Positions 62,534-63,601 of a DNA stretch of 64,000 nucleotides are shown here, piece after piece. The stretch comes from Streptomyces sp. CB03234 (lineage in GTDB: Bacteria; Actinomycetota; Actinomycetes; Streptomycetales; Streptomycetaceae): positions 1 through 64,000 of the forward strand of contig NZ_LIYH01000001.1 of assembly GCF_001905885.1 (NCBI RefSeq). Reading direction: 5' to 3'. How positions within the stretch are numbered: position 1 is the stretch's first letter; each line of letters starts with the position of its first letter. The notes beneath the pieces were generated by a model that worked only from the letters and a program-made list of their open reading frames with translations, had not been told where the DNA came from and did not search any database. A program made the position numbers and the translations under genes.

Positions 62534-63601
62534 ATGACCAAGAAGACGCGGGTCCGCGTAGCGCGGATCGCAGCCGGTGCGGTGATCGCGGCCGGAGCGT
62601 CCCTGACCGCGGCGGGCGCCGCCTCGGCGGTCGGCATAGACGTCAACGTCGCCGGCATCGGCGTACGCGCCGAAGCGGACGAGAACGGCCTGGAGGCCGG
62701 TCTCGGCATCGGCAACGATGGTGACCCGGGCGGTGTCGACGGCGGCGCCGACCAGGGTGGCACGGGTGACCAGGGCGGTACCGGTGACCAGGGCGGTACC
62801 GGCGACCAGGGTGGCACGGGCGACCAGGGTGGCACGGGCGACCAGGGTGGCACGGGCGACCAGGGTGGCACGGGCGACCAGGGTGGCACGGGCGACCAGG
62901 GCGGCACGGGCGACCAGGGCGGCACGGGCGACCAGGGTGGCACGGGCGACCAGGGTGGCACGGGCGACCAGGGTGGCACGGGCGACCAGGGCGGTACCGG
63001 CGACCAGGGCGGTACCGGCGACCAGGGTGGCACCGGCGACCAGGGTGGCACCGGCGACCAGGGCGGTACCGGTGACCAGGGTGGCACGGGCGACCAGGGC
63101 GGTACCGGTGACCAGGGTGGCACGGGCGACCAGGGCGGTACCGGTGACCAGGGTGGCACGGGCGACCAGGGCGGTACGGGCGACCACGGCGGTACCGGCA
63201 ACAACGGCGGTACCGGCAACAACGGCGGTACCGGCAACAACGGCGGTACCGGCAACAACGGCGGTACCGGCAACAACGGCGGCACCGGCAACAACGGCGG
63301 TACCGGCAACAACGGCGGCACCGGGGACCAGGGCGGCACCGCCACCGGCGGCTCCGTGACCGGCGGCGACGACGCCGGCACCTGCACCGTCGACCTCGAC
63401 GGTGCCGAGTGCGCCGACAACACCGACACCGACTCCGCCGGCTCCAAGCCGGTCGAGCAGGGCAAGGCCAAGGAGGAGCTCGCCGAGACCGGCGCCGCCG
63501 AGACCTCGTTCCTGCTCATCGGTGCCGCGACGATGATCGCCGGCGGCATCGGCTTCCGTATGCTGCCGCGCCTCGTGGGCGGTGGCCGTACGGTCGCCTA
63601 A
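62534..63601 (+). CDS. Sortase-anchored surface protein with collagen-like Gly-X-Y repeats
   Basis: 355 aa, starting [20 protein letters not shown]. The signal peptide is probably cleaved after AAGAASA. A short unique domain (33-74) precedes 32 perfect-length hexapeptides at 75-266: 23 GGTGDQ, one GGTGDH, seven GGTGNN and one GGTGDQ. Glycine therefore occupies every third position for 64 triplets. A Thr/Asp-rich segment with two Cys follows, then LAETG (316-320), a hydrophobic helix ([18 protein letters not shown]) and a short basic end, fitting class E sortase substrates. It contains almost no Pro, so a collagen triple helix is uncertain. No sortase gene is in the window. Confidence 0.88.
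62756..63331 (+). repeat. 32 tandem 18-bp repeats
   Basis: 576 bases made of exactly 32 units of 18 bases, encoding [12 protein letters not shown] or GGTGNN. Synonymous variants (GGTGGCACG versus GGCGGTACC) are distributed in blocks, showing past block duplication. Assembly errors in copy number are possible here. Confidence 0.97.

Follow-up and report, generated by a model that had tools for sequence, protein, structure and literature searches.

Class E sortases of Streptomyces coelicolor use LAXTG and anchor chaplins (PMC5148588, in excerpt), and a list of 14 LAXTG sortase substrates of this species is over-represented among genes repressed by wall antibiotics (PMC3123327, in excerpt). Periscope proteins (SasG, Rib and Sgo_0707) are surface proteins whose repeat number varies (excerpt of PMC8201768). 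For disordered chains, the hydrodynamic radius (Rh) can be predicted by the Marsh and Forman-Kay formula (excerpts of PMC4699819 and PMC8780864), and for LPMO linkers, length is described as decisive, not composition (excerpt of PMC10598543). Here we describe a widespread, probable surface protein of Streptomyces encoded within the window, i.e. the whole 64,000-nt stretch of DNA analysed. In the literature searched (mostly titles and abstract openings), we found no assigned role for it and no paper recognisably on its family, and published lists of LAXTG substrates may include its gene. The gene may likewise appear in Duong et al. 2012 (cited in PMC5882110).

We found ORF 62534-63601 (plus strand, ATG to TAA) encodes 355 aa, arranged as a signal peptide (residues 1-32, 62534..62629, with an inferred cleavage site), a variable stretch with which the mature chain begins (residues 33-74, 62630..62755), 24 hexapeptides GGTGD[Q/H] (62756..63187), seven GGTGNN (63188..63313), a final GGTGDQ (63314..63331), a pre-anchor segment with a Cys pair (63332..63478) and a sorting signal made of LAETG, a hydrophobic segment, basic residues and the stop (63479..63601). 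The 32 units of type GGTGxx are 23 GGTGDQ and one GGTGDH, contiguous, then the seven GGTGNN and the last GGTGDQ. TRF reports the array at 62749-63341 (period 18 bp, 32.9 copies, 91% matches, score 689), and this is the top score among the 30 arrays listed for the window; hence, chance is excluded. The preliminary description had read a signal peptide followed by a hexapeptide array with Gly at every third residue, almost no Pro and separate GDQ and GNN blocks. All of this is borne out: the longest run with Gly at every third residue is 65 triplets, Pro is ~1% of the mature protein, and both blocks are real by unit count. Elsewhere in the window, a long minus-strand ORF (53905-57534) has its own low-complexity repeat of GGTPV/GGTAG type (array at 56377-56504, 15-bp units, 8.5 copies).

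The same description had proposed a stalk anchored to the wall by a class E sortase, and both ideas agree with the sequences: 123 full orthologues, for which the motif was required, have LAXTG ends. Gram_pos_anchor (PF00746) is the sole Pfam match of the window protein at E<=1; the whole protein scores 17.5 bits, under the cut-off of 20, and the C-terminal piece 21.5 bits (E=2.3e-4). The genome has 11 matches over cut-off to the sortase family (PF04203). Based on the LAXTG motif, the hydrophobic segment, the basic end and these sortases, the best reading is that the window protein is a class E sortase substrate. No Pfam domain was found in residues 1-72 or in the repeat, and Pfam gave no candidate head domain in the window protein. 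A single-sequence AlphaFold monomer has a mean pLDDT of 35.7 with 350 of 355 residues below 50, and says little on the fold. Three of the sortase-family matches cluster at C9:334053-337349 of the same genome; next to them, 61 bp resemble the stalk gene (82% DNA similarity) and perhaps belong to another anchored protein.

The genome comprises 7.77 Mb in 13 contigs. The upstream neighbour of the stalk gene is ORF 61035..62141 (plus strand), which we take from its sequence to be prfB (release factor 2), preceded by two kinase genes that we presume, also from sequence, to be pkaA-like and pkaB-like. A same-strand relative of prfB lies upstream in 123 of 130 orthologous loci, at a median gap of 314 nt from the stalk gene. 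In the remaining seven (L014, L017, L018, L022, L026, L044 and L096), prfB is absent from the ~1.5 kb examined upstream and other reading frames are found there; the blocks of promoter and leader are for the most part retained. Directly downstream of the stalk gene is a 10-bp tandem repeat, CGTACAGCGA (4.7 copies, 63666-63712), adjoined by a GC-rich inverted repeat, a possible terminator. A small Cys-rich protein is encoded downstream on the minus strand, and further genes downstream are, as we recognise them by sequence, presumably ftsE, ftsX, an S41-type protease gene and smpB. Judged by gene order, the stalk gene of S. coelicolor is probably SCO2971 or SCO2970. SCO2972 is named as an RF-2 gene (PMC7157823, in excerpt), and SCO2970, which may be the stalk gene or its neighbour, is listed as likely to be under the control of both sigma-E and BldC (PMC10771440, in excerpt).

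Upstream of the start codon, we found a putative -35 element, TTGACG (62385..62390, plus strand), which 129 of 130 leaders carry at a distance of 90-200 nt from the start codon. The putative -10 element, AAAGCT (62408-62413, plus strand), occupies positions common to the orthologues, which have AAGGGT or AAGGCT at an almost fixed spacing from TTGACG and share a T as the sixth base in 126 of 129. The 5' leader (62414..62533, plus strand) contains conserved blocks, as aligned for 84 of 129 leaders, and includes CTACTGGGGGTAG (62514..62526, plus strand), a Shine-Dalgarno sequence within a short inverted repeat; it is present in 128 of 130 orthologues and occurs once, as an exact match, in the genome. 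A regulatory role of the conserved blocks of promoter, leader and CTACTGGGGGTAG is possible. A regulatory RNA structure in the leader was considered and set aside since, despite the conserved blocks, tests of folding, covariation and arm swaps gave it no support. In the 84-leader alignment, RNAalifold gave the Shine-Dalgarno hairpin alone (6 pairs, covariation term 0), with one change on both sides, in one sequence; the trimmed alignment of 129 leaders folds into a longer hairpin, and when leaders are folded singly, the 5' block pairs with the 3' block in 80 of 129. Leader folding energy was not better than that of shuffles (mean z -0.33, n=129), whereas the control stretch directly before the promoter, taken for the prfB terminator, surpassed its shuffles by far (mean z -2.64, n=129). 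When arms were exchanged between species, pairing was not significantly weaker (p=0.14, n=128), and the seven Rfam matches at E<=1 were sub-threshold, with none in the leader.

Of 150 Streptomyces genomes searched with the first 72 residues, 130 gave a match at E<=0.001, at one place in each, and a 32-residue profile matched in seven of the remaining 20 (137 of 150 in total); two of these seven profile-only loci gave full proteins with LAXTG. In an order-level search, 95 of 119 genomes matched, all from one of the five genera sampled, and among 41 relatives 23 matched, all of the same genus. A second, weak match was seen in one genome of the order-level set. In the public genome collection, at least 79 named loci were listed, all of them Streptomyces, and the window is accordingly assigned to this genus. 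Full proteins, for which retention of the LAXTG motif was required, came from 123 of the 130 loci; they end in LAETG (116), LADTG (4) or LAQTG (3). Of the seven dropped loci, two are closed reads without the motif (L027 and L101), and the rest have N runs or a contig end. L101 shows an apparent reading-frame change inside the repeat and no LAXTG end, and L027 has PADPAD followed by unrelated sequence that by eye is cytochrome P450-like; each may be a sequencing or assembly error or a real change.

Comparing the orthologues, we found mean pairwise identities (6555 pairs, 115 species) of 86% for the signal peptide, 74% for the 36 residues from LAXTG and 90% for PrfB, and of 15% for residues 33-55, which were compared position by position without gaps. 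Net charge is negative in all 123 chains (-10 to -55). The repeats include PTEE, PTNPPTN, PTDPG, GGENP, GGTDPV, GGATD, AGTD, GADG, GTST, GTT, GAGNDG, GGTGDQ and more. By these alignments the signal peptide and the sorting signal stay constant while the presumably exposed middle differs in most species.

The repeat units are replaced rapidly. Among the 53 of 123 stalks that are near-perfect (repeat perfection >=0.85), there are 40 primitive units up to rotation, of 3-18 residues each. We placed 48 near-perfect stalks on the prfB tree and counted a unit as shared if present three times or more; the nearest prfB neighbour has the same unit in 8 of 48, and a stalk 4-mer overlap of at least 0.5 with that neighbour occurs in 9 of 48, versus 0.7% of random pairs. 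Hence, inheritance of a unit is seen among the closest species, and replacement soon follows. At a prfB identity of at least 0.96, the unit is common to 8 of 25 neighbour pairs, so it does sometimes pass to close neighbours. L093 has GGATD (225 aa) and L070 has PTEE (149 aa) at 97.3% prfB identity. The closest relative seen is Streptomyces sp. WAC05374 (L237), with 93.6% DNA identity over the 2.1-kb upstream part. A search for homologues with the same hexapeptides, as had been suggested, succeeded in part: repeat number differs between species, with 20 GGTGDQ units in WAC05374 and 32 GGTGxx units in the window protein, but the GGTGNN block is missing from WAC05374, in which GGNGNS/GGNGGN follow the GGTGDQ run. 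A distant orthologue (L123) has GGTGDN.

Our main reading, with a probability of about 0.6, is that this protein is a sortase E substrate whose acidic, probably unfolded chain serves as a spacer or brush, is not collagen, has no conserved binding head and turns over its repeats fast. The Sec-type signal peptide would export the protein, and the LAXTG signal would then anchor it to the wall via sortase E, given the specificity described in the excerpt of PMC5148588. The mature chain is hydrophilic, acidic and of low complexity, is probably unfolded, and would act as a polymer that covers the wall or extends from it. Its sequence seems largely free to drift, so tandem repeats repeatedly arise, are homogenised and give way to others, as the comparison shows. 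Composition class and length change together by comparison, and the GGTGxx array would be the filling currently used in this lineage. Orthology, conserved ends, turnover of the middle, the coupling of class with length and negative charge come directly from the aligned sequences.

The Pro content of the 123 stalks is bimodal. We set the class border at 10% Pro after seeing the data; the nearest stalk below has 9.6% (L080) and the nearest above 11.2% (L086). Mature Pro-rich chains (n=61) have a median length of 149 (range 123-231), versus 229.5 (range 139-316) for Pro-poor chains (n=62; p=1.5e-19). The length gap is present for each pre-anchor type (Pro-rich vs Pro-poor, 168/246, 143/221 and, for others, 162/213), for the 55 proteins whose genomes have 6 contigs or fewer (151 vs 221) and for a second set, of 56 proteins (144 vs 217.5, p=1.4e-9); the two sets may overlap in species and are not fully independent of each other. 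On the prfB tree of 115 species, the class switches at least 21 times, a number that tree error may inflate as this is a single-gene tree; 100 label shuffles gave a mean of 38.9 switches and a minimum of 33. Hence, a lineage keeps its class for some time before it switches. Independent contrasts gave r=-0.80 (114 contrasts). For 14 independent pairs on supported branches, compared with a 185-residue cut chosen after seeing the data, the Pro-rich member was shorter in 10.9 on average, with 0 opposite and 3.1 tied (median p=0.001). The length difference between the two classes is firm.

The predicted size of the chains differs less than their length. Using the Rh formula, which includes Pro by construction and ignores Gly and sugars, we obtained medians of 41.6 Å (Pro-rich) and 44.2 Å (Pro-poor), a ratio of 1.065 for a length ratio of 1.54; the class difference in predicted radius nonetheless stays significant (p=0.0054). 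The CV of predicted Rh was 0.102, and the minimum in 5000 permutations of composition over lengths was 0.183; in the second set, it was 0.094 vs 0.146 on permutation. The slope of ln length on Pro was -1.95 (bootstrap -2.33 to -1.62), where full compensation is -1.96, and -1.86+-0.13 by contrasts (-1.71 in the second set). Size compensation inside each class was rejected: the within-class slopes were +1.64+-0.42 (Pro-rich) and -0.99+-0.70 (Pro-poor), i.e. no compensation, and nil with repeat perfection in the model (+0.12+-0.36 and -0.25+-0.63, respectively). Length also correlates strongly with repeat perfection, which is a confounder, and the overall slope halves when perfection is included (-1.04+-0.12; -0.97+-0.16 in the second set). 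The finding on LPMO linkers (PMC10598543) also counts against our reading. Since compensation vanishes within classes and perfection confounds it, selection for constant size is offered as a hypothesis only, and selection holding the physical size of the chain is our least certain step. The fuller version of our reading is accordingly tentative, and we would sooner bet against it than for it: the placement signals alone would be under strong sequence selection, and the exposed chain would be selected purely as a negatively charged polymer of constant size, one that has switched at least 21 times in the sampled species between a short, stiff Pro-Thr/Asp/Glu form and a long, flexible Gly form, with length following polymer scaling and the unit rewritten between most neighbouring species.

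The same lengths could have a mutational origin, with length mirroring DNA repeat expansion, perfect Gly-rich arrays growing and Pro-rich arrays decaying, and no selection on size. This is possible, though we doubt it. Length increases with repeat perfection in both classes, the within-class effect of Pro is nil once perfection is included, and 45 of the 53 near-perfect stalks are Pro-poor, all as expected of such a process; yet near-perfect arrays still differ in median length between the classes (193.5 Pro-rich, n=8, vs 239 Pro-poor, n=45), as do arrays of intermediate perfection (159, n=15, vs 217, n=15), the overall slope persists with perfection included, and all decided independent pairs go one way.

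The function could instead reside in the conserved ends, with the signal peptide directing site-specific export, or the pre-anchor Cys pair marking a small wall-proximal domain, and the stalk as filler; we consider this unlikely. As a protein sequence, the signal peptide comes close to PrfB in conservation across the genus (86% vs 90%), which seems high for a cleaved sequence and may reflect a targeting role. At fourfold sites, it is less conserved than prfB (52% vs 68% identity, 2000 random pairs), and on this ground we rejected DNA-level constraint on the signal peptide. The Cys pair, however, is found near the C-terminus by pattern in just 38 of 123 orthologues, and export and anchoring would remove the conserved ends.

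Less probable still is that the stalk is a mucin-like scaffold for O-mannosylation whose repeats are interchangeable acceptor arrays. Ser and Thr are abundant in many stalks, the genome has two PMT-family matches, and O-glycoproteins made through Pmt are known in S. coelicolor (PMC5882110, in excerpt); against this, Ser/Thr make up 5-7% of the mature part in L113, L102, L022, L019, L095 and L098. The suggestion in the preliminary description that Thr is glycosylated therefore survives as a possibility, given the two PMT-family matches, but does not extend to the whole family since Thr is not universal (e.g. GGGDAAAA and GADG stalks). For the Ca2+ binding also suggested there, our analysis gave no indication.

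That the protein is collagen-like, as first described, found no support, as there is no Pfam collagen match at E<=1 and the orthologue repeats do not keep Gly at every third residue, which also led us to reject a collagen or polyglycine II rod as a family trait. With NCBIfam models, the window protein scored 36.2 bits of 500 required for Lcl, 16.7 of 400 for SclA and 9.5 of 325 for SclB. A trimeric or polyglycine II type rod formed from GGT/GDQ/GNN triplets in this lineage is highly improbable: the 65 triplets are uninterrupted Gly-X-Y in the window protein and WAC05374 retains 50, but there is hardly any Pro and no collagen Pfam match, runs of at least 30 triplets occur in just 8 of 123 orthologues (about five kinds; at least 20 in 12 of 123), and other orthologues have repeats of period 4, 5, 7 or 10 at the same site. 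Gly at every third residue appears to be a passing state among the orthologues, and the collagen-like look of the window protein appears incidental.

If the reading of the stalk as a spacer or brush is right, this family amounts to a large natural experiment on which properties of a disordered surface chain are retained in evolution, with more than 100 orthologues that have alignable ends, unalignable middles and a mostly fixed locus, and conformational buffering, i.e. selection on chain size, would be directly testable in Streptomyces, a harmless model genus. For a striking repeat such as GGTGDQ, orthologues should be compared before a fold is named.

Compared with known systems, the window protein resembles class E substrates of Streptomyces in its LAETG signal, hydrophobic segment and basic end; unlike chaplins, it has no chaplin match in Pfam. 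It is not of the SCO1860 family (NF041527, 17-20 bits vs a cut-off of 200), and NF041528 strep_LAETG gave 17.4 bits vs a cut-off of 30 for one of six further orthologues scanned. Like the collagen-like adhesins Scl1/Scl2 and Lcl, it has Gly-X-Y runs, and as Scl1 and Scl2 are LPXTG-anchored (NCBIfam description), so the window protein has its LAETG sorting signal; unlike them, it has no family score near cut-off, almost no Pro and a repeat that is not conserved. As in periscope proteins, repeat number varies, here between species. In periscope proteins, the stalk consists of folded domains in tandem and projects a binding domain at the N-terminus (excerpt of PMC8201768), whereas this stalk is of low complexity, lacks a recognised head and undergoes replacement of the repeat itself. 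In adenovirus E1A linkers, length and composition change together and size is kept (as described in the excerpt of PMC10598543); the present chain differs in that it is a bacterial surface stalk in which compensation lies between two classes and not within them.
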